A DNA stretch of 33,123 nt, taken from positions 1-33,123 of IMG/VR virus record IMGVR_UViG_3300020473_000079; one strand, written 5' to 3'. The notes under the pieces were generated by a model, which saw nothing but the letters and a program-made list of their open reading frames with translations, had not been told where the DNA came from and made no database searches. Of this stretch, positions 1 through 14,300 are shown piece after piece (position 1 is the stretch's first letter; each line of letters starts with the position of its first letter). The position numbers and the translations under genes were made by a program. This stretch comes from a virus.

Positions 1-104
1 TTAAGAGTAACACCTAACCACTGTGGATAACCATCCCAATGATGATATACAGATAAAATAGCATCATCCGCAAGTTGTAATCCTATTCTTGATCTTGTTG
101 CCAT
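1..104 (-). CDS. Small conserved phage protein, N-terminal part (cut by window edge)
   Basis: The reading frame starts at ATG (102-104) and stays open to the left edge, so only about 34 residues are visible. They begin MATRSRIGLQLADD and continue into a YHHWDGYPQWLG segment. I remember this start and the YHHWDGYP box from a small protein found in many T4-like cyanophages and other phages; its function is not known. No Shine-Dalgarno-like sequence is visible before the ATG, and the preceding ~290 nt is a GC-rich, hairpin-rich leader that may control it. Family recognition is from memory, and the C-terminus lies outside the window. Confidence 0.7.
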   Translation of the reverse strand, partial: MATRSRIGLQLADDAILSVYHHWDGYPQWLGVTL

Positions 105-116
105 TTAAAAAAGGGA

Positions 117-395
117 ATAAAAAACACGTGGGATGTTAGTTCTTTCTTCGGTTGCGAACCGAGAGGCACATCCATCTCCTCGTAAAGGACTTACAGGACG
201 TAATTTCTCTGCTGAACAGAGACAACCATAGATCCTTGCCCAAATTAGATAAGGTGAGAGAAACAAAAAACGGAGACAGTGCATTACTCTTTCATCATGT
301 GTCTGCTTCTTGCCCATACCGTTCGAGGGAGATCTTTTAAATTCCTCACGAGGCGGATACTGTCAGACTAGAAAGAAACCGTCTTTGTTTCCCAT
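117..395 (-). ncRNA. Candidate structured RNA or long structured leader (GC-rich, no convincing gene)
   Basis: This gene-free stretch is about 45% GC by hand count over 121-360, against about 32% in an ordinary coding line (4201-4260). It holds several perfect inverted repeats: 131-136 with 168-173 enclosing 148-153 with 157-162; 206-211 with 217-222; 275-280 with 359-364, competing with 301-305 and 364-368; and 375-379 with 387-391. On the minus strand it starts just after an extended -10 box (402-410). T-runs follow hairpin-like sequence near 264-269 and 117-122 and could end short transcripts. It may be a non-coding RNA, or the 5' leader of the gene at 1-104. I recognise no known RNA family; it does not fit a tRNA or tmRNA. 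A 70-codon minus-strand frame across it lacks a ribosome site and has atypical codons. Confidence 0.4.
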
Positions 396-401
396 ACATG
401 T

Positions 402-410
402 ATAATACCA
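402..410 (-). promoter_or_regulatory. Extended -10 promoter directly after a terminator
   Basis: The minus strand reads TGGTATTAT, an extended -10 (TGn) with five of six matches to TATAAT. There is no good -35 box. It begins immediately after the T-run of the terminator at 412-437, so transcription would restart about 7 nt downstream (around 395) and enter the GC-rich region. The same layout occurs at 5962-5994. Confidence 0.5.
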
Positions 411-411
411 T

Positions 412-437
412 AAAAAAGACCCCTGTATAGGGGTCTT
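412..437 (-). terminator. Rho-independent terminator
   Basis: An 8-bp perfect stem (416-423 with 430-437, AAGACCCC/GGGGTCTT) with a 6-nt loop is followed on the minus strand by six T residues. It lies 20 nt downstream of the stop of the gene at 458-727 and closes that unit. The symmetric stem would also give T-runs on the plus strand, but no plus-strand gene leads into it. Confidence 0.85.
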
Positions 438-457
438 GTTACACTTGTTAAACTGTC

Positions 458-727
458 CTAGTCATCATACACTCTACACTCTAATGCGTCAGGATGATTA
501 TCACAATATACTTCTAACCCCTTATCCTCATGCCTGGTGTGCCAATCATTGATAGCACCATCATTCTTGTCTACTTCTTCTTCACTATGTGCATGGAAGG
601 CATCATTGTGCATTTCTAAATCTGCTTCACTATATTCAATCATACCATGATTAACATGTTCCTTATGATCTTTAGGATCAAGATATACTTCATGTTCTAA
701 ATCGTGGTTTGGTATTTTAGTTGTCAT
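458..727 (-). CDS. Small acidic, His-rich hypothetical protein (89 aa)
   Basis: I do not recognise the family. The frame could begin at 760, but the ATG at 725-727 is preferred because AGGGTGG lies about 4 nt upstream and suits a ribosome site; the protein then starts MTTKIPNHDLEHEVYLDPKD. It is strongly acidic and rich in histidine, with no membrane segment or signal peptide. Three Cys/His-bearing stretches (HARHE-like spacing around residues 60-80, then CDNH and EC near the end) could bind metal, but this is only a composition-based guess. It is the last gene before the terminator at 412-437 and follows the gene at 773-991 at 45 nt, probably in the same transcript. Confidence 0.65.
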   Translation of the reverse strand: MTTKIPNHDLEHEVYLDPKDHKEHVNHGMIEYSEADLEMHNDAFHAHSEEEVDKNDGAINDWHTRHEDKGLEVYCDNHPDALECRVYDD

Positions 728-772
728 AATCCACCCTACTTTGTTGTTGAGTAATCTCATTGTTATTTATTT

Positions 773-991
773 TCAAGAGACTGTTTGGAGTTCTCGAAGT
801 GATTTTTTCCTAACAAACTCTTGATTCATATTATAGTACAATTTATGATTTTCTGTAGTAACATAGTGTCCTTTTATGTCCCCATCCTGACAATGCCACC
901 CATAAGCAATGACTTTTTCTTCTTCACCATCTATTCTTAATTTCTTACTACCATCTAGGTATGAATGGTATCGTTCGTCTAAATTAAGCAT
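773..991 (-). CDS. Hypothetical protein (72 aa)
   Basis: This 72-residue soluble protein starts MLNLDERYHSYLDGSKK and has no motif I can name. The middle (KVIAYGWHCQDGDIKGHYVTTENHKLYY) looks like a few short beta strands. The ATG at 989-991 is the first start after an extended -10 promoter at 1015-1023, leaving a leader of only about 17 nt without a clear ribosome site. It is the first gene of a two-gene unit that ends at the terminator at 412-437. Confidence 0.6.
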   Translation of the reverse strand: MLNLDERYHSYLDGSKKLRIDGEEEKVIAYGWHCQDGDIKGHYVTTENHKLYYNMNQEFVRKKSLRELQTVS

Positions 992-1014
992 GAGTCTATG
1001 AAGTATGTGTTGAT

Positions 1015-1023
1015 ATTATAACA
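1015..1023 (-). promoter_or_regulatory. Extended -10 promoter for the 991-458 unit
   Basis: The minus strand reads TGTTATAAT, a perfect TATAAT hexamer with the TGn extension, in a very AT-rich gap (992-1087). No -35 hexamer resembling TTGACA is found 16-18 nt upstream. The predicted start is near 1008, just before the ATG at 991. Confidence 0.55.
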
Positions 1024-1087
1024 TAGTTATATATTTTATCTATAAACTTTATAATCTCTTCATAATCTATTGGTATAACTTAATACT

Positions 1088-1330
1088 TTATATCAAATCC
1101 AGGTCTTTACCCACTCTCGTTCTCTTCAATGAATATGTAGAACTATTTGATAATAACTCTAATATGTCTTGTGAATGTTTGGCACATACCTGATGATATG
1201 CTATTCTATCAACCACAGTAGTCCTTATAGTATTATACAACTCTTCTGGAGTTACATCACTATCAATCGCCTCCTCTACCCATGCTTTAAGATTATCTAG
1301 AGCATAACTTTTAAGGTCATTGTCTTCCAT
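1088..1330 (-). CDS. Conserved small phage protein (80 aa)
   Basis: The protein begins MEDNDLKSYALDNLKAWVEE and is acidic and mostly helical for its first 60 residues, with a basic tail. I remember similar MEDNDL.. proteins from T4-like cyanophages; the function is unknown. The start at 1330 is well supported by AAGGAGG 7 nt upstream. That ribosome site lies inside the preceding gene (1317-1481), with which it overlaps by 14 nt in another frame, so translation is probably coupled. It is the last of four nested genes transcribed from the promoter at 1838-1866. Confidence 0.75.
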   Translation of the reverse strand: MEDNDLKSYALDNLKAWVEEAIDSDVTPEELYNTIRTTVVDRIAYHQVCAKHSQDILELLSNSSTYSLKRTRVGKDLDLI

Positions 1331-1481
1331 TTTGATCCTCCTTTACTATTTGTTGAATCAGTTTTTCTATTTGTTCAGAAGTAAGTTCATTTAAAAATGC
1401 CCAATTAGGGTCTTTCTTGTCCCATTCTACCTTGAATGTTCCATCATCATTTTGATTGACCTTTAGACTGTCGTTTGGCAT
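1317..1481 (-). CDS. Small conserved phage protein (54 aa)
   Basis: Translating the minus strand from ATG 1479-1481 to TGA 1317-1319 gives MPNDSLKVNQNDDGTFKVEW and a further 34 residues including DKKDPNWAFLNELTSEQIEK. The MPNDSLK...G.F..EWD..DP.W.F.N.LT pattern matches small proteins I remember from cyanophages (function unknown). It is charged, with a likely C-terminal helix. It overlaps the next gene (1088-1330) by 14 nt and the previous one (1447-1605) by 35 nt, each in another frame. The conserved protein pattern makes this a real gene despite its size. Confidence 0.7.
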   Translation of the reverse strand: MPNDSLKVNQNDDGTFKVEWDKKDPNWAFLNELTSEQIEKLIQQIVKEDQNGRQ

Positions 1482-1605
1482 CCTTCTTCTCTTTTTTTAG
1501 TCTCTTCTTTGCTATTTTAGCATACTTTACCTCATCTGTCGTGTACCATTCAGGATGTTTCTTTGATTGTTTGATTAGTTTCTTTGCTGCTTCTAGATCC
1601 TTCAC
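1447..1605 (-). CDS. Small Lys-rich protein (52 aa) with GTG start
   Basis: The frame runs from a GTG at 1603-1605 to TGA at 1447-1449. It gives KDLEAAKKLIKQSKKHPEWY, then TTDEVKYAKIAKKRL and a Lys-rich tail. The pattern (helix, PEWYT, D/EEVKYA helix) resembles short hypothetical proteins of marine myoviruses that I have seen, with no known function. An in-frame TAA about 18 nt upstream of the GTG excludes a longer version; the GTG is the only conventional start early enough to keep the first helix. It overlaps the gene at 1550-1816 by 56 nt and the gene at 1317-1481 by 35 nt. No strong ribosome site is visible, so the start is less certain than the frame. Confidence 0.55.
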   Translation of the reverse strand: MKDLEAAKKLIKQSKKHPEWYTTDEVKYAKIAKKRLKKEKKDAKRQSKGQSK

Positions 1606-1816
1606 TATTGTTAAGATTTGTTATATGTTCTAACATAGTATCTATACGATCTTCCAAATAGTTCTCTAAATTATACATTTGCTTTGCATAATCCATATTT
1701 TCTTGTGTTAATATATCTACATCGCTCTCTAATAACTCTATTCTATTCAGTAATTGGTCTCTCATTATTAACATTTCATCATAGAGATTGTCTATGGGTG
1801 TTGTGCGTCTTCTCAT
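1550..1816 (-). CDS. Coiled-coil hypothetical protein (88 aa)
   Basis: The protein starts MRRRTTPIDNLYDEMLIMRD; residues ~8-66 have a heptad-like spacing of Leu/Ile/Met with many Glu, Asp, Gln and Asn, consistent with a coiled coil. The last 20 residues are Ser/Lys/Thr-rich and probably disordered; they overlap the next gene by 56 nt. It is the first gene behind the consensus promoter at 1838-1866, with a leader of about 15 nt and no good ribosome site. The family is not recognised. Confidence 0.6.
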   Translation of the reverse strand: MRRRTTPIDNLYDEMLIMRDQLLNRIELLESDVDILTQENMDYAKQMYNLENYLEDRIDTMLEHITNLNNSEGSRSSKETNQTIKETS

Positions 1817-1837
1817 AATTGTAAAGTATGCTCTTAG

Positions 1838-1866
1838 ATTATAAAACCCCTGACAGAATATGTCAA
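1838..1866 (-). promoter_or_regulatory. Perfect sigma70 promoter embedded in a terminator
   Basis: On the minus strand TTGACA (1861-1866) and TATAAT (1838-1843) are both exact consensus and separated by exactly 17 nt (1844-1860). The -35 box is the upstream arm of the terminator hairpin at 1847-1869, and the -10 overlaps its T-run. It should drive the four-gene unit 1816-1088 with the host RNA polymerase. Confidence 0.85.
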
Positions 1867-1869
1867 GGG
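1843..1869 (-). terminator. Rho-independent terminator overlapping a promoter
   Basis: A 9-bp stem (1861-1869 with 1847-1855, one G-T pair) and a 5-nt loop are followed by four T residues on the minus strand (1843-1846). It would end transcripts coming from the 52-aa gene at 1949-2107 and the upstream operon. The T-run is short, so read-through is likely. Confidence 0.7.
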
Positions 1870-1948
1870 TTAGTGTGACTATTTAATTTACTTTAAGGTG
1901 GATGTTGATACTTAATCATTTGTTTGTTAAGATAAACGTCTAATTGTT

Positions 1949-2107
1949 TTAAATTAAAACCTCCTTACATATACGTTTACAAACATGTTGGTCGTCTTCA
2001 CAGTCAATCAGGCACTCGTAGTATTCTGTGATTAAATCTCTATGTGAATCGTCATATTCCATATGTTTTGATCCAGCAAGTTGATTAAATGAAATTAAGT
2101 TGTGCAT
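1949..2107 (-). CDS. Small Cys-containing conserved phage protein (52 aa)
   Basis: From ATG 2105-2107 to TAA 1949-1951 the minus strand encodes a 52-residue protein starting MHNLISFNQLAGSKHMEYDD and ending in a segment with four cysteines (EYYECLIDCEDDQHVCKRIC). I remember the start and the Cys-containing end from cyanophage small proteins; function unknown. The four cysteines (C-x3-C and C-x3-C) could bind a metal ion, which is a guess. The start is clear: GGGAGG lies 6 nt upstream. It has its own promoter region (2165-2182) and is followed by the terminator at 1843-1869. Confidence 0.75.
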   Translation of the reverse strand: MHNLISFNQLAGSKHMEYDDSHRDLITEYYECLIDCEDDQHVCKRICKEVLI

Positions 2108-2164
2108 AATTGCCTCCCAATGAACTACAATAACGAAGAGATTTAGATCATCTTGTTATCCCTA

Positions 2165-2182
2165 ATTCTATCATTATTTATG
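2165..2182 (-). promoter_or_regulatory. Overlapping extended -10 and T4-like late promoter boxes
   Basis: The minus strand contains CATAAATA (2175-2182), one mismatch from the T4 late box TATAAATA. It runs straight into TGATAGAAT (2165-2173), an extended -10 with five of six matches to TATAAT. Either or both could drive the 52-aa gene 60 nt downstream. The rest of the gap 2108-2227 shows nothing else. Confidence 0.45.
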
Positions 2183-2227
2183 CAAATTGTGTCTGTATTC
2201 CCTAATACATTTAACAAAAATTTATGC

Positions 2228-2533
2228 CTAGTATTCTCTCTTGTCTGTATAATAACTACCCAATGCTCCACTCATTAGAGTCTCACTAATCTCTCCATTT
2301 GGTGTAGTAATAGTAGGAGTTACATAATTATTCTTTTGACCTGCTTTTAATGGTGGATTATGAGGATTAGGCATTGCTCTTACCATTTCAAGTACTTGAT
2401 CTCTTATCTCCATCAGTTCATGGTAACATTCTTGGTTATGCGCGCATCCTCTTAATCTATCATCAGGTTTATATACCGATTCAAGAAATAGAGTTCTACC
2501 ACGTTCCCATTTCTCTTGTTTAGTTTCACTCAT
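2228..2533 (-). CDS. Hypothetical protein (101 aa)
   Basis: The protein begins MSETKQEKWERGRTLFLESV. The first ~60 residues look helical (with CAHNQECYHELMEIRDQVLEM), and the last 40 are Pro/Thr/Gly-rich and probably extended. I do not recognise a family. Its ATG overlaps the TGA of the gene at 2530-2754 (ATGA), so it is probably translated from the same message, as the last gene of the helicase-nuclease-methyltransferase operon. No terminator lies directly after it; transcripts may run on to the terminator at 1843-1869. Confidence 0.6.
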   Translation of the reverse strand: MSETKQEKWERGRTLFLESVYKPDDRLRGCAHNQECYHELMEIRDQVLEMVRAMPNPHNPPLKAGQKNNYVTPTITTPNGEISETLMSGALGSYYTDKREY

Positions 2534-2754
2534 TTGGATTTCTTAATTTCTTTTAGTATGTAGTTCTTAGCAGATTGATAATTTCGGACAGTATGTACCC
2601 ATTCACCATTATTAATTATAGCAAGTTTCTTACTATCAGCAAGTGGAATTGCTGCCCACATTCCATCTTTAGTCACATAACCCTCTGGACTGCCGCACAG
2701 AGGGTCTAGGATACCTTTGTTAGGGCAGGGATAGAACTTTCTATAGTCAACCAC
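2530..2754 (-). CDS. Hypothetical protein (74 aa), GTG start
   Basis: The protein reads VDYRKFYPCPNKGILDPLCG at the start, then a short beta-rich part (GMWAAIPLADSKKLAIINNG) and a Lys-rich helical end. No motif is recognised; two cysteines (CPNKG, LCGS) are the only notable residues. The GTG at 2752-2754 overlaps the TAG of the preceding 46-aa gene by one base (TAGTG), which supports this start through coupled translation. It overlaps the next gene by 4 nt. Confidence 0.6.
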   Translation of the reverse strand: MVDYRKFYPCPNKGILDPLCGSPEGYVTKDGMWAAIPLADSKKLAIINNGEWVHTVRNYQSAKNYILKEIKKSK

Positions 2755-2894
2755 TATGGACGTGCATTAACACTGATTACCCTAGCATTAGGGTTCCTTG
2801 CAAGTGCAACCTCCCTTGCCTCATCATAGTTCCTTGCATGTACCTGCTCAGTAAATACTGAACCAGCAACATAAAGTTTGACTTCGCACTTCAT
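2754..2894 (-). CDS. Small conserved phage protein (46 aa)
   Basis: The minus strand from ATG 2892-2894 to TAG 2754-2756 encodes MKCEVKLYVAGSVFTEQVHA followed by RNYDEAREVALARNPNARVI and a short end. The layout (beta strands, then a helix RDY.EAR.VALARNP and a final strand) matches a small protein I remember from many T4-like cyanophages; function unknown. It lies 22 nt after the methyltransferase stop and overlaps the next gene's GTG, so it belongs to the same operon. Confidence 0.75.
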   Translation of the reverse strand: MKCEVKLYVAGSVFTEQVHARNYDEAREVALARNPNARVISVNARP

Positions 2895-2916
2895 AATGAA
2901 TTTGTTACTAATTTGA

Positions 2917-3897
2917 TTATACTATATCAAGTATGCTTATGGGTGGTTCTTGTGCCACTTCACTAACTGGTTTATATTCACTCACTCTTTTCTGAATTAG
3001 ATTACCATAGTCCTCATGCAATTCACATCCTATGTAACCTCTACCTAATGACTTGGCAACCGCGGCAGTCGTACCTGATCCCATAAATGGATCTAATATA
3101 ATATCACCCTTCTCACTACCTGCTATGATACATGGTTCAATTAATTCAGGTGGATATGTTGCGAAGTGTGCTCCCTTGTATGGTTTCTTATTCACAGTCC
3201 ATACTGACCTCTTATTCTTCTTCTCATAACTCTTAGTTAATCCTGAGTGTGGTTGCAGTCCTGTTCCTTCATTATGATACTTACCATTAGTTCTATCTCT
3301 GGTTCCCCAATCCTTTGCAGGTTCTTTAATTGCCTCATTATCATAGAAGTATTTCCTATTCTTACTTAAGAGGAAGATATACTCATGTGACTTGGTACAT
3401 CTATCTCTCACACTCTCAGGCATTGGATTAGGTTTATGCCATATAATGTCCTGCCTCAAATACCATCCATCTGCTCTTAATGCAAATGCCAACATCCATG
3501 GGATACCAATAAGATCCTTCTCTTTTAATCCTTCTAATCTATTACTACGTTTAGGTGAATGTTCTGGCAAATCCTGATTATTACTTGCAACAGTTTGTTT
3601 GACGTATGCTTTACCAGGTCTATAATTATTATAACTATCTCCTATGTTTAACCACAATGTACCATCATCAGTAAGACAATTTCTTACTAATGACATTACC
3701 TCTACCATCTGTTCAATATATTCTTCTGGAGATTGTTCTAATCCTATCTGTGATTCTTCTCCACCATAATCTCTTAATCCATAATAAGGTGGAGATGTAA
3801 CGCACATACGCGGTCTCTCAGCAATACCAGTTGTTATTTGTGCATGTAGTGTGCCTAATGTCTTTCGACAATCTCCAAATAGGATAGTGTCTCTCAT
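2917..3897 (-). CDS. DNA methyltransferase, beta-class TSPPY type (N4-cytosine or N6-adenine)
   Basis: This 326-residue enzyme transfers a methyl group from S-adenosylmethionine to an amino group of a DNA base. Catalytic motif IV TSPPY is at residues 34-38, and the AdoMet-binding motif I DPFMGSGTT is near the C-terminus (269-277), the beta-class order. Between them lie WLNIGDSY and a likely target-recognition part (~residues 100-240). SPPY is more usual in N4-cytosine enzymes, though this does not settle the base. Length is typical of the N4/N6 methylase family. Its ATG overlaps the TGA of the nuclease-like gene (ATGA) and GAGG lies upstream, so the two are co-translated. No dedicated restriction partner with recognised specificity is seen, but the adjacent PD-(D/E)XK protein is a candidate. 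It could also be a lone protective methylase. Confidence 0.92.
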   Translation of the reverse strand: MRDTILFGDCRKTLGTLHAQITTGIAERPRMCVTSPPYYGLRDYGGEESQIGLEQSPEEYIEQMVEVMSLVRNCLTDDGTLWLNIGDSYNNYRPGKAYVKQTVASNNQDLPEHSPKRSNRLEGLKEKDLIGIPWMLAFALRADGWYLRQDIIWHKPNPMPESVRDRCTKSHEYIFLLSKNRKYFYDNEAIKEPAKDWGTRDRTNGKYHNEGTGLQPHSGLTKSYEKKNKRSVWTVNKKPYKGAHFATYPPELIEPCIIAGSEKGDIILDPFMGSGTTAAVAKSLGRGYIGCELHEDYGNLIQKRVSEYKPVSEVAQEPPISILDIV

Positions 3898-4505
3898 AGT
3901 TTAACCTCATAATCTTCACATAAATTTTTCATTTTCCAATGAATCATACCTGTTACATCATCAGGTAAAATACTTGTAGGAACAAACCAGACTCTATCTT
4001 CTGGTATATAAACAAATGCCATATGAGTGCAAGTATCTTTATACTTAAGTTTAGCATTATTCTCAAGTCTCCAATTTGGTTTATCCATATTAGAAGATTT
4101 TAATTGAACTGTAAATATTTCTCCATCTTTAATAAGAACAAAATCCACTCCCCATATATCTTCCACTGGAATGTAAACTTGATAACCTTTAATCAACATC
4201 AAATTCTTAAATTTATCTTCTGCTATTCTACCCAGACCAGCATTTCTTGTTGCAATTTCTACATCTTCTTTAGTGAACAATCTATTTTTTAGAAGAGTAT
4301 CTGATTCCATTATCTGATCATATTCTTTTTGTGCCTTCTTTAATGCTTTATCTTTATCTGTTGTTTTAAGAGATATAACTTTCACACTCTTCCAATGAGG
4401 TTGTTTTGTTATTCTCAAATAGTAATTAGGATTAACCCGATCTCCTCTCAAATAGATAATAGATTTATCATTCAATGTAATTTTATTTTTAGTATACTTA
4501 TTCAT
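3894..4505 (-). CDS. PD-(D/E)XK-like nuclease with N-terminal DNA-binding-like region (203 aa)
   Basis: Two parts are visible. Residues ~14-66 contain LRGD...YYLRI and SLKTTDKDKALKKAQKEYD, which resembles the N-terminal arm-binding region of tyrosine integrases. Residues ~91-185 look like a PD-(D/E)XK nuclease core: E96 in GRIAEDKF, D121 in GVDFVLIKDG, and Q134-L-K136 in FTVQLKSSN, followed by a strand with VWFVP. The G-x-D-(x)n-QLK pattern is typical of small endonucleases that cut double-stranded DNA. It sits between a small gene and the methyltransferase with 4-nt overlaps on both sides, and GGAG lies upstream of the ATG. This suggests DNA cleavage paired with methylation. The integrase-arm resemblance is weaker than the nuclease call. 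Confidence 0.7.
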   Translation of the reverse strand: MNKYTKNKITLNDKSIIYLRGDRVNPNYYLRITKQPHWKSVKVISLKTTDKDKALKKAQKEYDQIMESDTLLKNRLFTKEDVEIATRNAGLGRIAEDKFKNLMLIKGYQVYIPVEDIWGVDFVLIKDGEIFTVQLKSSNMDKPNWRLENNAKLKYKDTCTHMAFVYIPEDRVWFVPTSILPDDVTGMIHWKMKNLCEDYEVKL

Positions 4506-4747
4506 TTAGTTTGCTCCGATACTATTGCCTTTAACTTACCATCCTTATCTACAGTTATGTTAACATGATGTGCAAAATCATTCTTAGAATCTAAGACCTT
4601 AATATCTATTGCACCACCTTTACCATAATATGTGATGTGGAACCTATCGGCACTTATATCCCACTTGTTAGGATTTTTGGCATGTTTATATACGGGATTT
4701 GAGTGCTTATCCTCATAACCATTTATCCATTGAAATTGTCCTATCAT
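4502..4747 (-). CDS. Hypothetical protein (81 aa) in helicase-nuclease-methylase operon
   Basis: The protein begins MIGQFQWINGYEDKHSNPVY and has alternating hydrophobic and polar residues (RFHITYYGKGGAIDIKVLD, HHVNITVDKDGKLKAIV) that suggest a small all-beta fold. No known domain is recognised. It overlaps the helicase stop and the nuclease start by 4 nt each, so its amount is probably tied to both. It could be an accessory subunit or inhibitor of its neighbours, which is inference from position only. Confidence 0.65.
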   Translation of the reverse strand: MIGQFQWINGYEDKHSNPVYKHAKNPNKWDISADRFHITYYGKGGAIDIKVLDSKNDFAHHVNITVDKDGKLKAIVSEQTK

Positions 4748-5940
4748 TTTGTTACCACTGATGTTGCTGCTTCACCCTTATTAAAGATAACATCCACAAC
4801 TGCTTCAACCTTCTTAGCAGTAGAAATACCAACTTTAGAGTAGACTGGTACACATATTAAACCATAAGTCTTTTCTTTGCAACCCTTACGGATTACTCTG
4901 CCTATTGTTTGACTGATACCAATGTAATCCATAGAACGTAAGAATAGAACCGCCTCAAGTCCTCTGACGTTGATACCCTCAGATAATATGCTATGATGTA
5001 ATACTACAAACTTCTTCTCCGCATCCTTACCCCATGCAGATAATACCTCAAAGAACTTATCTCTACTTACTTTCTTACCATTGATAACAGCACCAGTTCT
5101 TGCTGTAATATACATGTAATCATAACCTCTTGATGTCAATTCAGCAATAAACTTAGGATATGTAATCAATCCTGTAATCTGCTTAGTTGACTTTGCACAT
5201 ACAAGAATCTTCTTTGTATTGTGGTCATCAATGTTATCAATAATCTGATTACATTCTACATCAAATGTTATCTCATCTTTCTGTAGTATGTCAGTCTTAT
5301 ATACTTTAACTTTAGGTGGTAGAATATAACCACCCTGTACTAACTTAGGTGCAGGTACTTGGCATATTACATTGCCAAATATATCAGGTTCATTCATACC
5401 CACCTTGAAGGGTGTTAAACTATGCTTAGGTGTGGCAGTAAAGAAGTATGTACGATTAGCATACATTGAAAAATGCTCTACAGCACCAATAAAATTCTTC
5501 TGAACACTATTGTGTGCTTCATCAAAATAAACTACATCAACTACAATATCACTCTCTTGTATTTTATGTAATGAATGATATGTTGTAAAGATGATTTGAT
5601 GACTATTTGATTCACAGCACACATTGTTATGAAGTCTAATTACATCTATATTTGTAGTAGAATTGTAATCAGTCTCTCCACTATGAACATGTAATACTTG
5701 AATACCAACATTATAGTTACCATCAAGATTCTGTTCCATAAACTCAGAACATAGTTGACCTGCTAATAGAATACGTGGAGCAACCACAACAATGGTTGCA
5801 ATCTCTTCTGTCCTGAATACTCTCTTAGCATCCTCAATCATACACATGGTTTTACCACCACCTGTAGGGACAATCACTTGCCCCTTATCATTTGCCAACA
5901 TAGCATCAATAGCATCCTGTTGGTGGGGACGTAATTGCAT
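4744..5940 (-). CDS. SF2 DEAH-box helicase / translocase (398 aa)
   Basis: This is an ATP-dependent DNA or RNA helicase of superfamily 2. Motifs in order: Q-like start RPHQQDAI (4-11), Walker A PTGGGKT (25-31), motif Ia VVAPRILLAGQL, Walker B DEAH (140-143), motif III TATP (168-171), and motif VI QTIGRVIRK (344-352). At 398 residues it is a minimal two-RecA core, shorter than T4 UvsW and without extra domains. It resembles UvsW/type III restriction helicase-like proteins of marine phages. It is the first gene of an operon with a small protein, a nuclease-like protein and a methyltransferase, joined by ATGA overlaps. Transcription probably begins at the extended -10 box at 5962-5970. Roles in recombination, replication restart or a restriction-like complex are all possible. 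Confidence 0.93.
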   Translation of the reverse strand: MQLRPHQQDAIDAMLANDKGQVIVPTGGGKTMCMIEDAKRVFRTEEIATIVVVAPRILLAGQLCSEFMEQNLDGNYNVGIQVLHVHSGETDYNSTTNIDVIRLHNNVCCESNSHQIIFTTYHSLHKIQESDIVVDVVYFDEAHNSVQKNFIGAVEHFSMYANRTYFFTATPKHSLTPFKVGMNEPDIFGNVICQVPAPKLVQGGYILPPKVKVYKTDILQKDEITFDVECNQIIDNIDDHNTKKILVCAKSTKQITGLITYPKFIAELTSRGYDYMYITARTGAVINGKKVSRDKFFEVLSAWGKDAEKKFVVLHHSILSEGINVRGLEAVLFLRSMDYIGISQTIGRVIRKGCKEKTYGLICVPVYSKVGISTAKKVEAVVDVIFNKGEAATSVVTK

Positions 5941-5961
5941 TTAAAAAATTCAACTGAAGAT

Positions 5962-5970
5962 ATTATAGCA
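5962..5970 (-). promoter_or_regulatory. Extended -10 promoter of the helicase operon
   Basis: The minus strand reads TGCTATAAT: a perfect -10 hexamer with TGn extension. It directly follows the T-run of the terminator at 5972-5994. No convincing -35 exists; the -35 position falls within the hairpin. The start would be near 5955, giving a leader of about 14 nt without a ribosome site before the ATG at 5940. Confidence 0.65.
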
Positions 5971-5971
5971 T

Positions 5972-5994
5972 AAAAAAGACCCCCTGAAGGGGTC
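5972..5994 (-). terminator. Rho-independent terminator ending the tail module
   Basis: A 6-bp GC-rich stem (5978-5983 with 5989-5994, GACCCC/GGGGTC), a 5-nt loop and six T residues on the minus strand make a strong terminator. It lies about 80-100 nt after the 2OG oxygenase gene at 6073-6564 and separates late-type from early-type units. The stem and T-run are nearly the same as those at 412-437. Confidence 0.9.
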
Positions 5995-5999
5995 GTGTG

Positions 6000-6015
6000 C
6001 CAGTTCCGTCACTGG
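6000..6015 (-). other. Small perfect hairpin upstream of the terminator
   Basis: CCAGT (6000-6004) pairs with ACTGG (6011-6015) around a 6-nt loop. It precedes the terminator at 5972-5994 by a few bases on the transcript. It might protect the 3' end of the late message or help the terminator; no protein-binding site is recognised. Confidence 0.4.
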
Positions 6016-6028
6016 TTCCCTTAAAGAA

Positions 6029-6076
6029 TTATAATCCCTGCCTTAAACCTCTACAAACATAGTTATAAGATTTCAT
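6029..6076 (-). CDS. Possible 15-residue leader-type peptide gene
   Basis: An ATG at 6074-6076 overlaps the TGA of the oxygenase gene (ATGA), has GAGGTG 6 nt upstream, and opens a frame MKSYNYVCRGLRQGL ending in TAA at 6029-6031. Start overlap and ribosome site look as good as for the real genes nearby, but the product is tiny and the frame could be chance. No family is recognised. Confidence 0.3.
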   Translation of the reverse strand: MKSYNYVCRGLRQGL

Positions 6077-6564
6077 ATTTTCACCTCAGTATTATACTTA
6101 ACATCAACAAATAATATCTCTAATGGTTTATCTGAATAATTAAATGCTTGATGTAAATTATTCATCACATCACACAGTTGAGGAACTCCATTCTCCCATA
6201 ATATCTTATCATTATTACCCATCCATTCCATATAACATTTGTTCTTATCTGGAACTGCCAATGGTATTTGTATTCTTTTATATGGGTATCTTAGAATGTT
6301 TGGATCTTTATGTGGTTTTAATATAGTTTCAGGATAGAATACAGCATAGTTTGAAAATAATATATCATTATTCTGATAGATTTTACGAACACTATCAGTC
6401 ATTAACTTATCTCTAAGTATTGTAGTTTTCTTAACAGATTTAATCCAATAGTAATCAATCACCTTGTTAGAATAACCATCTATCGTAGGTGCTTTCTTAA
6501 CTGGAAACTTTACATTCCTTGCCCAGTTATATAATATCTCTAGTTCACTTTTATTAATCATCAA
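6073..6564 (-). CDS. 2OG/Fe(II) oxygenase, aspartyl/asparaginyl hydroxylase-like (163 aa)
   Basis: The central part carries FYPETILKPHKDPN (H85-x-D87 as likely iron ligands), a strand RIQIPLAVP, then MEW...LWENG and DVMNNLHQAFNYSDKPLEIL with H138 as the likely third ligand. This order (HxD, W..G, D......H...N.S) is that of the Asp/Asn beta-hydroxylase family, which uses 2-oxoglutarate, oxygen and Fe(II). The usual arginine that binds 2-oxoglutarate is not obvious; K146 is in about the right place. The gene follows the 166-aa unknown with an ATGA overlap and closes the fibre region, so a phage tail protein could be its substrate; this is inference. Confidence 0.7.
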   Translation of the reverse strand: MMINKSELEILYNWARNVKFPVKKAPTIDGYSNKVIDYYWIKSVKKTTILRDKLMTDSVRKIYQNNDILFSNYAVFYPETILKPHKDPNILRYPYKRIQIPLAVPDKNKCYMEWMGNNDKILWENGVPQLCDVMNNLHQAFNYSDKPLEILFVDVKYNTEVKI

Positions 6565-7061
6565 TTCATATAGAAAAGACCTAGTGCTCCACCATTCAAG
6601 TTTACCTTATATTCTTTGCTTACGTCAAGTCTTGCATATTCATATCTTTTCATGATCTTATTATTCACTATAGGTCTACCATCAAAACATACAAGAAATG
6701 ATATTTTATGTAACTCACGTATGACGTGCAAATCTAGTACCTCTTCATCACTTTTAATGAGTCTACCCTCCCAATTCTGACCCTTCTCAAGCGTATTGAA
6801 TCCAACTAAATGGAAATCTTCCTGCGAATGAAATATTCTAAACTTATGCAAATAACTTCTAACATCAACAAATTCTCCTTCCTTCACTAACACATAATCT
6901 TCAGAGAACATTGTACCTAGTTTACCAATACCTTTAATTCCATAATAGAATATTGTATTAGAATCAATAGGATTCTCTGCTAGTACATAATCTTTCTTTC
7001 CAATGTTTACACAGAGTGTAAAGTCATTACCTATTCTATGAAATCTTCTACATGTAGTCAT
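6561..7061 (-). CDS. Hypothetical protein (166 aa), tail-region
   Basis: The protein begins MTTCRRFHRIGNDFTLCVNI and is beta-rich throughout, with motifs such as FYYGIKGIGKLGTMFSEDYV, GRLIKSDEEVLDLHVIRELH and a C-terminal LNGGALGLFYMN. There is no signal peptide or membrane segment. I do not recognise the family. ATGA overlaps on both sides place it in one translational chain with the 113-aa protein and the Asp/Asn hydroxylase-like enzyme, directly after the polyglycine adhesin. A role in fibre assembly or modification is plausible from position only. Confidence 0.65.
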   Translation of the reverse strand: MTTCRRFHRIGNDFTLCVNIGKKDYVLAENPIDSNTIFYYGIKGIGKLGTMFSEDYVLVKEGEFVDVRSYLHKFRIFHSQEDFHLVGFNTLEKGQNWEGRLIKSDEEVLDLHVIRELHKISFLVCFDGRPIVNNKIMKRYEYARLDVSKEYKVNLNGGALGLFYMN

Positions 7062-7399
7062 AATTCAATTTCATTCAATTCATTATCAGTTCCATAAGGA
7101 ATTGCTATTACCTTATCAATTAAATCATCAAAATCTATTGACTCAATTTCACTTGATGATTTATTTTCTGGTAATGTTGGTTCCTCAATTAAGTACATTA
7201 AGGATCTATCAGATACCAACTCTCTTATGCTTTCTTCAAAATTATACAGACTACTAAAATCAAATCTATCATATGATACTCTTATTGGCACATAATCATC
7301 AATAGGTCTTGATGAATTCTGACGACACATCTTAATTTCTATTGTTTGATCGTCAGGATTATTTTTTATCACCTTAAAAATAATATTAATTGGAATCAT
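7058..7399 (-). CDS. Hypothetical protein (113 aa), tail-region
   Basis: The protein begins MIPINIIFKVIKNNPDDQTI: a beta-rich first half (about residues 1-50) followed by a very acidic, Ser/Glu-rich second half. It starts 3 nt after the stop of the 357-aa adhesin gene, so it is probably expressed with it, and overlaps the next gene by 4 nt. No family is recognised. It could be a fibre chaperone by position, but the sequence does not show this. Confidence 0.6.
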   Translation of the reverse strand: MIPINIIFKVIKNNPDDQTIEIKMCRQNSSRPIDDYVPIRVSYDRFDFSSLYNFEESIRELVSDRSLMYLIEEPTLPENKSSSEIESIDFDDLIDKVIAIPYGTDNELNEIEL

Positions 7400-7402
7400 A
7401 TA

Positions 7403-8476
7403 TTATGCACCACTTCCGGGCCAATTAGGATCTGTACCAGTTAATGTTCTACCCACTTTAGTACCTGAACCACTATATATTGGTGCAGAACCAGATTGAG
7501 TAACTATAGCATATCCATTATTACCACCAGTACTTGCACCTGCTCCTCCAGAAGCGCTTCCATCAGGTGCAGTTACAGCAGTATTTGGACTTGTCATATT
7601 ACTACCTCCTCCAGTACCACCATCACCTGCTTCAGATCCACCACCACCTGCTGAACCAAAATTTTTCTTTGTTGCATTACCACCACTAGTACCACCACTA
7701 CCACCATTAGAAGGAGAACCATTCACACCTCCACCTTGACCTTGAGGATAACCTGCACCACCTCCTCCACCTCCTCCAGTGGATACGGCAGTTTTACGAC
7801 TCTTTTTACCTGATTTAACAGATCTTGAACGACCTGCTCCACCTCCTCCACCACCATACCCTGCCTGTATTCTACCATTATTTCTAATAGTAACAGGAGT
7901 ATTTGTATATTCGATACCTATTGCACTGGTACCAAATCCTCCACCTGTTCCACTATTATTACCTTCACCACCTACACCACCTACACCACCAGAACCATAT
8001 ATGGCACCCTGTGGTCCAACCTTTATTTCAAGTGTTGTTCCATCACTCCAATTCCCAGTTTCTAATGCACAAATAGTATTTCCTGTAGTACGGGTATTTT
8101 CAGAACCCAAAGTCTTATTAACAACAGCAACTACCTTTCTACCTGTTGTATTATTTCCTTGATTAGGTCCATGTCCTCCAACTATTATATAATTATTAGC
8201 TTTAAATCTCTTTTTTACACTTCTTCTATATTCTTCTCCAGAAGGATTACTATAAAAATCTACAACTATATTTCTTCTTGCATTGTAAAAATCACTAAAT
8301 TTAATTGCTCCACTTGTAGGAATACTTGCGTTTGCATTAGGTCCACAAGTATCATTATCTAATGCAAAATCAAATCCACCATAAGATTCTGATACTCTAT
8401 ATCCATCCATGCTTGAGTATCCAAATTCATCCTTAATCTCAGAAAATTTTATCTGTCCAGAAGATGGTAATGCCAT
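7403..8476 (-). CDS. Polyglycine-rich tail adhesin (357 aa)
   Basis: The N-terminus (MALPSSGQIKFSEIKDEFGY...IPTSGAIKFSDFYNARR) is a virion-attachment segment that I remember from several cyanophage structural proteins: two SG(Q/A)IKFS repeats. Residues ~55-130 form a beta-rich part. From ~135 to the end the chain is dominated by glycine runs (GGGGGGAG, GGVGGVGGEG), separated by short loops such as the basic RSRSVKSGKKSRKTAVS near residue 215. This is the composition of polyglycine-sandwich receptor-binding tips such as gp38 adhesins of T-even-like phages, in which loops between glycine helices contact the host. It lies next to the fibre genes and has a late promoter box at 8512-8518. The receptor-binding role is a family inference. 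Confidence 0.8.
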   Translation of the reverse strand: MALPSSGQIKFSEIKDEFGYSSMDGYRVSESYGGFDFALDNDTCGPNANASIPTSGAIKFSDFYNARRNIVVDFYSNPSGEEYRRSVKKRFKANNYIIVGGHGPNQGNNTTGRKVVAVVNKTLGSENTRTTGNTICALETGNWSDGTTLEIKVGPQGAIYGSGGVGGVGGEGNNSGTGGGFGTSAIGIEYTNTPVTIRNNGRIQAGYGGGGGGAGRSRSVKSGKKSRKTAVSTGGGGGGGAGYPQGQGGGVNGSPSNGGSGGTSGGNATKKNFGSAGGGGSEAGDGGTGGGSNMTSPNTAVTAPDGSASGGAGASTGGNNGYAIVTQSGSAPIYSGSGTKVGRTLTGTDPNWPGSGA

Positions 8477-8495
8477 TATTACTCTTTTTAATTAT

Positions 8496-9188
8496 TTAGT
8501 ATTTTTTCCAATATTTATCATCAATATACCCCATAGAGTAATGTAATTGGTCTTCTTTAAGTATTAAAGTAATATCTCCAACAATAGCAAGTCTTTCTCC
8601 TTTAAATTCACCGCCCATAAATCTGGTATTATGTGACAAACTACTAGGAAACATAGCAACATATCCTTCAGGTGGATGTATATAAAATGTCTCACTATTA
8701 AGTTCATTATAATTCTCTACCATACTTCTATGAGGATTATCATCTCCAATATTCATAGTCTTAAACAAATCATTCTTACTACACTCATTTTCAAATTCTA
8801 AACAATGAGAATTAGGCGGTACATTTACATAATAAGAAAATGATATATGACTTGTAGAATGTATGTGCCATCTTATTTCATCATTAGGTTGTCTTGCTCT
8901 TGATAACCAAGTTTTTGTAATCACATAGTTAAATATATCTTTGTATCCTAAAACCTCACAAGTATATTTCTTGGCATGTGAGGCAATCTCAGCAAATAAA
9001 GGATCTAAATTATTTTCCAGATGAATAAAAGGTTTACCTAAATTCTCACTAACAGTATTATCCGCACAAGTTTCCTCATAGTCAAACTTAGGATATACTT
9101 TATAGAATTCTTCCTTATGTTTTTGATGTTCATTCACTTCCCCAACATATACCGTAGTGGGGAAGATATTAAAAGTTTCAAATGTCAT
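8496..9188 (-). CDS. 2OG/Fe(II) oxygenase (230 aa)
   Basis: The protein begins MTFETFNIFPTTVYVGEVNE, the usual FPTPVY-like start of phage and bacterial oxygenases of the 2OG-FeII_Oxy_5 type. The core has WHIHSTSHISFSYYVNVPPN (H108 and H110, iron-ligand region, then the double-stranded beta-helix strand SFSYYVNVP) and PPEGYVAMFPSSLSHNTRFM (H186) with ERLAIVGDI (R199, likely to bind 2-oxoglutarate). HxH replaces the more common HxD but is seen in this family. It lies between the 696-aa fibre and the polyglycine adhesin, in the late module, so it should be made with the virion proteins. The substrate is unknown. Confidence 0.85.
   Translation of the reverse strand: MTFETFNIFPTTVYVGEVNEHQKHKEEFYKVYPKFDYEETCADNTVSENLGKPFIHLENNLDPLFAEIASHAKKYTCEVLGYKDIFNYVITKTWLSRARQPNDEIRWHIHSTSHISFSYYVNVPPNSHCLEFENECSKNDLFKTMNIGDDNPHRSMVENYNELNSETFYIHPPEGYVAMFPSSLSHNTRFMGGEFKGERLAIVGDITLILKEDQLHYSMGYIDDKYWKKY
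8512..8518 (-). promoter_or_regulatory. T4-like late promoter box for the adhesin gene
   Basis: ATAAATA on the minus strand, in the context TGATAAATATTGG, lies in the last codons of the oxygenase gene and 36 nt before the ATG of the adhesin. T4 late consensus is TATAAATA; the first base is G here. Confidence 0.5.
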
Positions 9189-9204
9189 GATAAAGTTGTT
9201 TTAA

Positions 9205-11295
9205 TTATGCTGTATGACTTACTCCTCTCCAACCAACTCCTTGTTGATAAAATTCTAACCTATTTTCACTCGTATTATAAACAAATGCACCACCAGTCAT
9301 ACCTGTTAAAGCATTTCTTTGAGCAGTAGTTACTTTAGGTGGATACATATACATTCTATTCGCAGCATCACCTTCAGCATCTTGTCCTGCTTCTCTAAAA
9401 TCAACTGCGGATTGTGGATTGGTAGTTCCTACTCCAACACTACCAAATGTTGCCTTTCCTTGAAGAGCATTAATAGTGATAGTATCATCAATTACATCAG
9501 TTTTAATACCAATATTACCATCAATGTCTACAAAAAATCTCTTATCATCTTCATTAATATCTAACCTATAGTCATTTGGATTTGTAGTACCAATACCAAC
9601 ACCAGCTAAAATTGAATTAGTTTGTGTTACATTTATTTCACTGAATGTTGAAACTCCAACACTCTGTATTAGAGATGATGCATCAATATTTCCTTGTATA
9701 TATCCAAAATTAGCATTACCAGTAATATTTCCTACAGCAGTTAAAGTACCATAAACAGTTAAATCTCCACCATAATAAGAATTACCAGATACTGTTGATC
9801 CACCAGATACATGTAACTCCATTTCTGGAAGTGTTATTCCAATACCCAAATTACCATCATAAGTTAATGCCATTAATCTTGATGATGTTCCTTTATGCCA
9901 GTAGAAACTTCCAGTGTCTGCTGTACTTACATTAGCATAATCAACATAAAAATTGATATTACCAGTATCATTATTCAATACATCAAATGATTTTCTTGTA
10001 GAATAATCATATGCACTCGTTTCATTACCATATTTCAATGAACCAGATTTAGTTGATAGAGTATTAGTTCCACCATTTAAACGAGCAACATTTATCTGTC
10101 CATATACACTAGCACCTGTTGATACTGTATTAAATTTAAGAGTACCATCATTATATAATTGCACATCCTCATTAGGATTAGCAACAATCATTGATTCTGA
10201 ACTATTACCAAGAATCTTGAATGTAGAACTTGATGTTTTTAAAATAAAATTACCCTCACCATAATCTTGAATAAGACTATCAGTACCACTATGAGATATT
10301 TCTAATCCAGGAGATGTGTCACCATCACCATCATCAAATACTGCCTTGACATTCTGACTAAATGTAAATTCTCCCTCTGACTTATCCCAATTAACTTTAA
10401 TATCTGAACCATTTTTAATTACAATATCATCATTAAATGTAGATACGCCAGCAACATTCACATTATCTAATTCTGTATGTCCGTCTACATCTAAATCTCC
10501 GTTTGCATCTATAGCACCAGTGAATGTAGAAATACCAGAAACAAATATACTACCACCTATAGATACCTCACTGTTGAATGTTGAAACTCCTACAAAAGTA
10601 GAAGCACCAGATACATTAACATCATCCAATTCTGAATGTCCATCTACATCAATACTACCAGTTAATGTTGAATTACCTAAAACTGATAGATTTCCATCTG
10701 CATCTATATCACCTATGAATGTAGAAGCACCAGATACATTTACATCATCTAATTCTGTATGACCGTCTATATCTACACCACCATCAGCATTTATATCCCC
10801 AATAAATGTAGAAACTCCACTTACATATAAGTCATTTGTAGTTGTTAATCCACTTACAGTAAGAACTCCTTCTTTAATACCAACTCCAGTATTATTAAGA
10901 GGATTATTGCCCACCTGCAATTCAAAATCATTAAATTCTGTAGTCTTTATACCAACATTACCTGTAGTTGTCAGACCTACAGTATTTTGAATCCATCCTG
11001 CAGTGGCAATAGCAACTATTCCACCTGCCCCAGAAAGATCACCAGTAAATGAAGTTGCTTCTATAATTCCAGTGGAAGCATTTAACTTAATTCCTGTACC
11101 AATAGTTACAATTCCAACTACTCCAATATGATTGAAGGAAGCAATACCAGAAACTCTACTATCACCATAAACATCAAGTTCTTTATTCGGTTGTGAAGTT
11201 CCTATACCAACTAATCCATCAGGACTTATAACGAAATTAGTATCGTCAACCTGTACCCCATTTCTAAAATTGAATGACTTAGTATAATTTGCCAT
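9205..11295 (-). CDS. Tail fibre-like structural protein with tandem VSGxSTF repeats (696 aa)
   Basis: The N-terminus (MANYTKSFNFRNGVQVDDTN, then SPDGLVGIGTSQP) is one I remember in cyanophage fibre proteins. Residues ~155-290 hold tandem copies of a ~40-residue unit made of VSGASTFIGDI, DADG and VDGH(T/S)ELDDVN. A beta-rich middle follows (KAVFDDGDGD...GNFILKTSSSTFKIL), then GIGITLPEMELHVSGG and VGIGTTNP motifs. The end (KVTTAQRNALTGMTGGAFVY..NRLEFYQQGVGWR) is a common fibre-tip motif. It is likely a trimeric fibre section. It is translated from an ATG 9 nt after the 1945-aa gene, with a late box (11310-11316) in the end of that gene. Confidence 0.85.
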   Translation of the reverse strand: MANYTKSFNFRNGVQVDDTNFVISPDGLVGIGTSQPNKELDVYGDSRVSGIASFNHIGVVGIVTIGTGIKLNASTGIIEATSFTGDLSGAGGIVAIATAGWIQNTVGLTTTGNVGIKTTEFNDFELQVGNNPLNNTGVGIKEGVLTVSGLTTTNDLYVSGVSTFIGDINADGGVDIDGHTELDDVNVSGASTFIGDIDADGNLSVLGNSTLTGSIDVDGHSELDDVNVSGASTFVGVSTFNSEVSIGGSIFVSGISTFTGAIDANGDLDVDGHTELDNVNVAGVSTFNDDIVIKNGSDIKVNWDKSEGEFTFSQNVKAVFDDGDGDTSPGLEISHSGTDSLIQDYGEGNFILKTSSSTFKILGNSSESMIVANPNEDVQLYNDGTLKFNTVSTGASVYGQINVARLNGGTNTLSTKSGSLKYGNETSAYDYSTRKSFDVLNNDTGNINFYVDYANVSTADTGSFYWHKGTSSRLMALTYDGNLGIGITLPEMELHVSGGSTVSGNSYYGGDLTVYGTLTAVGNITGNANFGYIQGNIDASSLIQSVGVSTFSEINVTQTNSILAGVGIGTTNPNDYRLDINEDDKRFFVDIDGNIGIKTDVIDDTITINALQGKATFGSVGVGTTNPQSAVDFREAGQDAEGDAANRMYMYPPKVTTAQRNALTGMTGGAFVYNTSENRLEFYQQGVGWRGVSHTA
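10430..10840 (-). repeat. Tandem coding repeats in the 696-aa fibre gene
   Basis: About four imperfect copies of a unit of roughly 35-40 codons (VSGASTFIGDIDADG plus VDGHTELDDVN) lie head to tail. Nucleotide similarity between copies is high, for example around 10608-10640 and 10728-10760. Copy number is likely to vary between strains through recombination. Confidence 0.7.
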
Positions 11296-11304
11296 TATTT
11301 CTTT

Positions 11305-14300
11305 TTAGTTATTTATCTGTTTTTCAAGAGCATCTACCTTCGCAGATAATTCTTTGACTGCTTCAATTAATAATGGTACTAATTTCTCGTACTGAACAGT
11401 TAGATATTCATTATTACTTGGAGCAGGTTTAACTGCCTCTGGTAATACTTCTTGAATTTCTTGTGCAGATACACCAGCAAATCTTTGGTCTCCTGTATCA
11501 ATATCACATTCTACCTTAGCAGTTTCATTATGCTTATAAGTAAATCCACTAATTGATTTAACTTTCTCAAGAGCCTTTGTTATAGGTGAAATCTCATCCT
11601 TAAGTCTAATATCAGAAGTTAATGCAGTAATATCACCAGTAACTTCTAACTCACCAGTAACTTTAACACCACCAGCATATGTAGTACCATTAGTTGGTTT
11701 TACTTGCAATCTAGTAATCAGATTATCTACACCTTGATTGTTAGGAATATTACTAATATCATTAATAACCTTGAACATTATCTTACCTAGATTACCACCA
11801 CCAATACCATACTGAATACGAGCATCCATATCATTATTAGAAACACCAGATAACTTTAATTTCTTAAAGTCGATATATGGACCACCAGCGGTTTCGGTCT
11901 GATCTGATCTTACTAGTTCAATTCCACCATCACTAGTAACTTCTACAAAGTTCAGATCACTATTATTTTCAGCAGTAGTAAACTTCGTAGAAGTTGATAT
12001 ACCACTAGAATTTAAATGACGACATGTAATATCAGTGAAAGAGGCATCTGGACTTCCAGTTATTCCACTTGCTGGAACATTTGTTAAGTTAGCACCATTA
12101 CCATGGAATGAAGTTGCATGACATTCATTACTAATTGAAACTCCTTTTTCAGTGGTTTCAAACTTAACACCAGGATCAGTAGCACCTCTCCAGTGAAGTT
12201 GAACACCAGCATTAGTAAAGAAAACAGCACTATCATTACCTGATGTGTCTTCGATTGCAACTGCATCAGCACCTTGGAGATGAAGATCACCATCACCAAC
12301 ATCTCTTATAAAACTTGCTGTACCACTATGATATATCTCCAACTCTTCATCATTACCTAATCTTATCTTTGTATTATCAGGAATTTTTAATCCAGCACTA
12401 AATGTAGAAATACCAGTAAACTTAGAATATCCATTAACATTAAGATTCTTACCAACACCAACCCCACCAACAACTGTTAGTGCACCATTTCCAGATGTTT
12501 CAGATTCAGTTGCAGATTTAATTCTAACATCATCATTAAAATTAATATCTTTATTAAATGTTACTGGACCATCAAATTGTGATAATGATTTATTAGATTT
12601 ACCACCTTCAACAACTAATCTTTCTTTAATAGTAACTTCATCAAATACCACACTCAATCTTGCAGGATCTTCACCAGCAACAGTTGGAATTGGAGTGTCA
12701 AATGTAACTTCTTCACCTGTTAATGATGATTTCTTCTGGTTTCCAATATAGAAATCACCTTTATTATTCATACCAGTGTAGACAACTGCACCAGCACTTC
12801 TTTCTTGAGATTGTGATAAGAACTCTTCTTTTTCGGTAAGAGTTTTTACCTGAACCTGTGGTAGTGCTGTTGAATAGTTACCTGGACCATAACCAAGATA
12901 CTCAAATGTATGACCAGAAGCACGTAGTATAGAAGGTCTATGGAACTCAACTGGGATTGGTTTAATTGATTTAACTAATGATCCAGCACTATGATTTTGT
13001 TTTTGTGTTCCTAAAACACCACGAAGAACCTTTAATTTATTATTATTTGTTCCAACAAGAGTAGAACTCTTGATTCTTACAATCTCATTATCAATAAGCA
13101 TATAAGAACCATACTTAAATCTTTCAGATATACCAAGTTTATTATTCAATAAAGTAACTTCAACCGTGTCATCAGATCCAACAGTACCAACTGTACCTAT
13201 ACCAACCTCATTACCAAATAATTCTACACCTCTTACAGAAAGATTTTCATCACCTTTTTGAGAAACAGCATTGTTTGAAGATAATCCATGCTTTAGAATC
13301 CATCCATTACTATATGGTAAGGTACCACTTGGGGAAGTCTTTGTAATGAATTTAGTAGTACTATTACCCCCAGATACACCACCAAGTTTTTCAACAATTA
13401 ATTCTCCTCTATTAATATTATTAGAATCATTATATTGAATTTTATTTCCTGCAACTAATCCATGAGGAACACCATTAACAGTAGTAAACACATATTGACC
13501 ACCAACATCCTGGACATTTGCTTTAATACTAGGGCCAACAATAAAAGCATATTGATCTGGAGTAGGTCTAGTATCTCCTGTTGCTGTTATGATACCAATT
13601 TGATTTGTTCCTGGAACAGTACTTAATCTGAAATATGAATCATCAGTAGTATTAGATCCAGTAAATTGAACTGTAAGATTCTCGTAAGTACCTAAATGAT
13701 TATCAGTAAGATTAGCTCCACCTACAGTAGCAGATAATTTACCAGTACCACTACCAATAACACTTGTATCAAAAAATCCATGACCACCAGTAGACCATCC
13801 TGATCCAGTATTTGTAATTGTAAATGAAGTTATAGCATTAGATTCAACCGTAACATTTGCTAGTGTACCGTTCCAATTAGTTAATCCTGGAGTAGGAAAT
13901 ATTTTTACATTATAATATACACCATTCGTAAATCCAGAATTGTTACTAACCTGAGCAGTCTGAAGACCACGTAAATTGTGATCTCTTTCAAACGTAATTG
14001 TAGAAACATCTACTCCATTAACAATATTACTAATAGTTAAACCAATACCAAGATTTATATTAAGTTTATCAACTGTTTCTCTTGTTATACTTCTATCAGG
14101 ATAATTAGTCGCAACTTCTCCTAATGGTGCCCTTAATGCAAATGATTTAGATGACTTTGGATTATCATTAACATTATCCCTATCAAGTTGTGGATATAAA
14201 TTAACAACATTCTGACTATATTTTAGATTTGAAAATCCTTGATCATCATCAGGTAAACTATTATCAGCATTTAATGGATATACATGATATACACCATCAG

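Follow-up and report, generated by a model that had tools for sequence, protein, structure and literature searches.

Free-standing homing endonucleases are common both in the intervals between conserved phage genes and at the boundaries of genetic exchange (PMC2988022; PMC10448857). In phage T4, five such endonuclease genes overlap the upstream open reading frame (ORF), mobE through the sequence UAAUGA, and translational coupling has been argued for mobE (PMC2988022). Here we describe a four-gene locus encoding a helicase, an 81-residue protein (P81), a 203-residue PD-(D/E)XK-type nuclease and a DNA methyltransferase in the virus record IMGVR_UViG_3300020473_000079, a fragment of 33,123 bases, hereafter the window. 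The genes of the window resemble those of T4-like cyanophages of Prochlorococcus and Synechococcus (Kyanoviridae: P-SSM2, P-SSM5 and the single-cell phages AG-345), and by this resemblance the window is a 33 kb Kyanoviridae fragment, from a marine cyanobacterial virus. We consider it probable that the helicase and the methyltransferase form a unit related to type II restriction–modification (R–M), with a variable cargo slot between them, that the methyltransferase acts alone, and that the nuclease is a free-standing homing endonuclease inserted into the slot.

Similar to the T4 seg and mob genes (mobE), the nuclease gene is a separate gene between conserved genes, patchily present in relatives and overlapping the upstream stop codon (PMC2988022), but the T4 enzymes are of the GIY-YIG or HNH type as opposed to PD-(D/E)XK here, and homing in the window is proposed. 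F-CphI of cyanophage S-PM2 is likewise a free-standing endonuclease of a T4-like cyanophage; assignment of the window nuclease to the F-CphI type was ruled out, because F-CphI has an Endo VII motif and a different fold (PMC6083498). The helicase, 58-residue protein and ‘dam’ genes of P-SSM2 (PSSM2_039-041) show the same helicase and methyltransferase families, order and overlaps, but there the slot holds only the 58-residue membrane-type protein in place of P81 and the nuclease. The methyltransferase family also occurs in other phages paired with a restriction endonuclease (REase) in the manner of MvaI/BcnI type IIP R–M systems, the REase gene immediately preceding that of the methyltransferase, whereas the window slot contains P81 and a homing-type nuclease, no such REase, and the locus adds an SF2 helicase. 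I-Ssp6803I (PDB 2OST), which is encoded in a group I intron, is the best structural match to the catalytic core of the nuclease and has acidic/acidic/QxK-type active-site residues as well; the two differ in that their identity is 18% and the window nuclease stands free between ORFs and carries about 75 additional residues as an N-terminal domain.

The nuclease gene and its empty allele

The four ORFs follow one another on the minus strand (5940–2917), as do all features of the locus given below, and ORF calling together with the three joint sequences confirms that they are linked by 4-nucleotide ATGA overlaps, as the initial annotation had reported: helicase to P81 at 4744–4747, P81 to nuclease at 4502–4505 and nuclease to methyltransferase at 3894–3897. 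The latter two joints are the left and right edges of the nuclease gene (3894–4505) relative to locus L170, which lacks exactly this gene, so that P81 is joined directly to the methyltransferase. At the DNA level L170 is 95.3% identical to the window in the helicase, 94.6% in P81 and 92.3% in the methyltransferase and downstream genes, and a 59-residue gene separates its helicase from P81. The nuclease gene has a GC content of 28.6%, compared with 34–37% for its three neighbours, a value that some other window genes share. The first 24 nucleotides of the window methyltransferase gene (3874–3897) differ at 5 positions from the sequence common to six nuclease-less relatives and are followed by near-identity; this candidate import footprint, which comprises few sites, suggests that the nuclease gene may have been brought in together with the 5′ end of a different methyltransferase gene. 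Occupied and empty alleles thus exist at this locus, and the family is found at several unrelated joints, as expected of a mobile insertion. An Rfam scan of window positions 1–12000 gave no match and revealed no self-splicing intron around the nuclease gene, which stands alone and is therefore classed as free-standing, as opposed to intron-encoded like I-Ssp6803I.

The putative active-site residues E96, D121 and Q134-x-K136, singled out in the initial annotation, are present and invariant across 19 homologues, and lie in a predicted catalytic domain of residues about 88–180 (3966–4244), delimited by residue conservation and Foldseek. In the Pfam scan, the 203-residue protein has a weak match to PDDEXK_5 (4e-5), under the Pfam cut-off. 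Sequence searches of the PDB with phmmer and a three-sequence profile gave nothing credible, so its PDB relatives are visible by fold search only. An AlphaFold2 model (pLDDT 87) has I-Ssp6803I (2ost) as its top Foldseek match in the PDB (E 1.3e-4, prob 1.00), and this predicted structure supports the earlier assignment of a nuclease fold. Secondary structure prediction places the first 75 or so residues in a separate domain of beta strands and a long helix (residues 1–74, 4284–4505), weakly reminiscent of integrase/DUF6538 DNA-binding domains (DUF6538, E=0.057). Among REase families and PADLOC defence families the nuclease had no family match, and comparison of its profile with the MvaI-type REase of locus L003, discussed below, detected no similarity.

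Searches with a profile from three sequences place the nuclease in a family of 25 viral loci and one named phage, and a collection of bacterial and archaeal genomes yielded no homologue. Its relatives lie mostly between the clamp-loader genes 44 and 62, where their start codon typically falls within an ATGA that overlaps gp44. Elsewhere, two follow purC, a D12 methylase comes after the relative in L209–L211, and in DSL-LC03 the relative is followed by an HNH homing endonuclease. In L223 (479–2464) a relative sits just upstream of the same helicase family, a second visit to the locus. The literature searched held no description of free-standing PD-(D/E)XK homing-type endonucleases in T4-like cyanophages, and the family is worth following on its own account.

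Helicase, methyltransferase and the slot between them

The fixed unit of the locus consists of two of its four genes, the helicase and the methyltransferase. Among distinct loci with readable context, 41 of the 50 anchored on the helicase have the methyltransferase within 3.6 kb downstream, and conversely 45 of the 54 anchored on the methyltransferase have the helicase within 3.5 kb (39 upstream, 6 downstream). This adjacency recurs in dozens of independent phage contigs and is more than chance. An N6A-methylase and a helicase were listed by Sullivan et al. among the genes common to 14 of 16 cyanophages (PMC3037559).

The helicase (4744–5940, 398 residues) has a Walker A motif PTGGGKT and a DEAH box and matches ResIII (3e-21) and DEAD (2e-13), which upholds its initial assignment to the SF2 DEAH-box helicases. 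Among solved structures in the PDB it comes closest to the helicase regions of two restriction enzymes, LlaGI and LlaBIII. Against defence profiles, with BREX, DISARM, Dnd and Dpd considered, it gives low-scoring matches to the PbeA, DpdF, BrxHI and Dnd restriction families, and no further defence genes were recognised among the neighbours examined in this fragment. Orthology with UvsW was considered and rejected, as P-SSM2, P-SSM4 and P-RSM4 hold a separate UvsW-like ORF of 490–495 residues elsewhere (a weak match); judged by these ORFs, the window-type helicase is a second helicase of these phages.

The methyltransferase (2917–3897, 326 residues) matches N6_N4_Mtase (PF01555, 7e-57) and PADLOC MTase_II (1.8e-103), and TSPPY (motif IV) precedes DPFMGSGT (motif I), in agreement with the initial call of a TSPPY methyltransferase. 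By motif order it is classed as beta-class and by family as type II-like. The SPPY motif suggests N4-cytosine methylation. Its proposed kinship with R–M enzymes holds as well, through the PADLOC type II assignment and through homologues in other phages that adjoin an MvaI/BcnI REase.

Across 84 distinct helicase-to-methyltransferase loci, the slot ranges from a 4-nucleotide overlap to 2785 bp. It is empty in 11 loci, and holds P81 in 24, a 58-residue-type protein in 22 and an MvaI/BcnI restriction enzyme in 2; further residents are a 176-residue phrog_624 protein, a 145-residue nucleotidyltransferase-like protein, a 2OG-Fe(II) oxygenase and an HNH protein. In 72 of these loci the helicase stop codon lies within an ATGA shared with the next gene, so the slot looks modular down to the codon. 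Co-occurrence in other phages was the check that the initial annotation had put forward for its four-gene set, and the window-type nuclease was found in none of the 84 other slots. The four-gene operon is therefore one of the combinations in which this modular locus occurs, as opposed to a conserved system of four genes.

P81 (4502–4747) belongs to a family of 38 viral loci. In 25 of the 37 distinct loci with readable context its gene immediately precedes that of the methyltransferase, and the methyltransferase is missing in 9. P81 is thus a common slot resident. Its predicted model is of low confidence (pLDDT 67) and gave no fold match in the search made with it; P81 is likely a small beta-rich protein. 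Inspection by eye also showed D...(E/I)xK-like motifs in the slot proteins L067:3450-4001, L027:2687-3205, L071:2171-2689 and L150:6425-6886. They were recognised by none of the family libraries scanned and for that reason are not counted as nucleases, although these motifs could mark them as further PD-(D/E)XK enzymes.

A restriction enzyme is attached to the same methyltransferase family in relatives. In the single-cell phage AG-345-L05 (L003), whose methyltransferase is 82% identical to that of the window, the slot holds an MvaI/BcnI-family REase (PF15515, 1e-42; PDB R.MvaI, 1e-22, and also R.BcnI) with its PD-x4-ExK pattern intact. A search for this REase type returned 40 viral loci, 23 of them distinct; in 20 of the 23 the same methyltransferase family adjoins the REase, with the helicase present too in several, and in several cases the REase stands between helicase and methyltransferase. 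L003, L312, L344 and others thus carry a phage-borne MvaI/BcnI-type R–M module. In the methyltransferase tree, 17 REase-bearing loci make up one supported branch and three other carriers are scattered among cyanophages. An REase of this type was not found at the window locus, only in relatives, and by sequence the window looks like an R–M locus without its restriction enzyme, for which loss and original absence are alike possible. The module merits further study; its methyltransferase is widespread in marine cyanophages that have no REase.

Contigs combining the REase with the same methyltransferase, several of them with the helicase, include L312, L317/L318, L320, L344, L349 and L003; these phage contigs are diverse and reach 284 kb, and REase loci of this kind occur in contigs of 145–284 kb among others. 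In P-SSM4 (L009, record positions 40590–44739), the genes just upstream of this methyltransferase and helicase include a further methyltransferase and one annotated as restriction endonuclease II.

Proposed mechanism and alternative explanations

In the mechanism that we propose, the methyltransferase would mark the phage’s own DNA and so protect it from same-specificity restriction enzymes of rival phages or hosts, with the helicase assisting it in some step. The nuclease would cut nuclease-less relatives during co-infection, and its gene would be copied into the cut relatives by recombination; the ATGA overlap would couple its translation to that of the upstream gene, and P81 would be another slot resident. 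Several points weigh against this picture. The activity of each of these proteins, any recognition site and homing are putative. With I-Ssp6803I the likeness stops at the catalytic core (query-length TM 0.42), and in the same PDB comparison the scores of Hjc resolvases are only slightly lower. The gp44–gp62 interval that hosts most nuclease homologues often also holds a D12 DNA methylase, so some functional link between nuclease and methylation is possible, and the 24-nucleotide patch hints that in the donor, too, the nuclease may have stood beside a methyltransferase. The methyltransferase tree gives no direction, loss or gain, for the REase in cyanophages.

The initial annotation had read the locus as a compact system distinguishing self from non-self DNA, and the corresponding alternative, that helicase, P81, nuclease and methyltransferase work together like a restriction system, the nuclease attacking host or rival DNA that lacks methylation and the methyltransferase shielding the phage, could draw on the overlap and probable translational coupling of all four genes, on the true MvaI/BcnI REase that sometimes occupies the slot beside the same methyltransferase, and on the nuclease-like motifs seen by eye in several other slot proteins. 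We regard it as unlikely, given that the nuclease, absent from the 84 other slots, normally resides in other operons, that L170, at 92–95% identity, has kept the rest of the locus without it, and that it matches no PADLOC defence family and is closest in fold to a homing endonuclease. A four-gene self/non-self system is thus unsupported, because the set is not conserved and the nuclease is homing-like, with I-Ssp6803I as nearest fold, and occurs mainly elsewhere, without this methyltransferase. What survives of the R–M-like activities first ascribed to the operon is the part concerning the methyltransferase, whose family is paired with MvaI/BcnI REases in relatives; the part concerning the 203-residue nuclease is unsupported, its fold being nearest to a homing endonuclease. 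A related proposal, which we hold to be quite improbable, makes the slot a swap bay for DNA-cutting weapons, in which nucleases are exchanged behind one shared methyltransferase mark, carriers attack co-infecting phages, holders of the methyltransferase are immune and the homing nuclease was recruited in the window; the nucleases concerned would be the MvaI/BcnI type, several unclassified PD-(D/E)XK-like proteins, HNH and the homing-type enzyme of the window.

The same fold comparison bears on whether the nuclease might instead be a Holliday-junction or branched-DNA enzyme (Hjc/RecU-like) serving phage recombination and shuffled among operons as a moron. Hjc structures from archaea follow close behind in the PDB search (1.4e-3), viral resolvases appear among the BFVD matches and relatives of the nuclease often stand among replication genes, but the best match is I-Ssp6803I, the nuclease has an additional N-terminal domain, and an empty allele, patchy presence and several unrelated positions would be atypical for a housekeeping resolvase; this role seems doubtful. 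There is also little probability, in our view, that the slot is no more than a cargo position tolerant of recombination, with residents neither selfish nor linked to methylation and exchanged through recombination between homologous helicase and methyltransferase genes on either side. The residents do lack a common theme (glycosylase-like, 2OG-oxygenase, nucleotidyltransferase-like and membrane-type proteins), but this explanation leaves unaccounted for both the presence of one nuclease family at a number of unrelated ATGA joints and the recurring MvaI/BcnI-type REase beside this methyltransferase.

The inserted homing-type nuclease beside a solitary methyltransferase therefore remains the reading that we favour, and it implies that a plausible-looking phage ‘defence operon’ may be a transient arrangement of a locus built from modules. 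Should the methyltransferase guard DNA against the REase that related phages carry, phage–phage restriction in the ocean becomes directly testable.

Surrounding features of the window

The initial annotation had placed the operon under one promoter. A scan of 5850–6200 found no sigma-70-type promoter, so the single-promoter claim is unproven; an intrinsic-terminator-like hairpin (5994–5978, minus strand) lies upstream, between the locus and the preceding gene, where it would end the upstream unit. On the other side, the methyltransferase is followed by a 46-residue protein (2754–2894, minus strand), and a small protein like it comes after the D12 (Dam) methyltransferase of L208–L211. This family of 46–47 residues (window 2754–2894; L208:3816-3959; L209:5447-5590) trails two unrelated kinds of methyltransferase, N6_N4-type and D12-type, in different operons.

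Two putative dioxygenase genes, resembling an Asp/Arg hydroxylase and a 2OG-Fe(II) oxygenase, lie near the tail-fibre region (6073–6564 and 8496–9188). Third-position GC differs strongly within this one phage: it is about 9–13% in the large, probably tail or fibre, genes (7403–32982), compared with roughly 17–34% in the small genes (458–7399).

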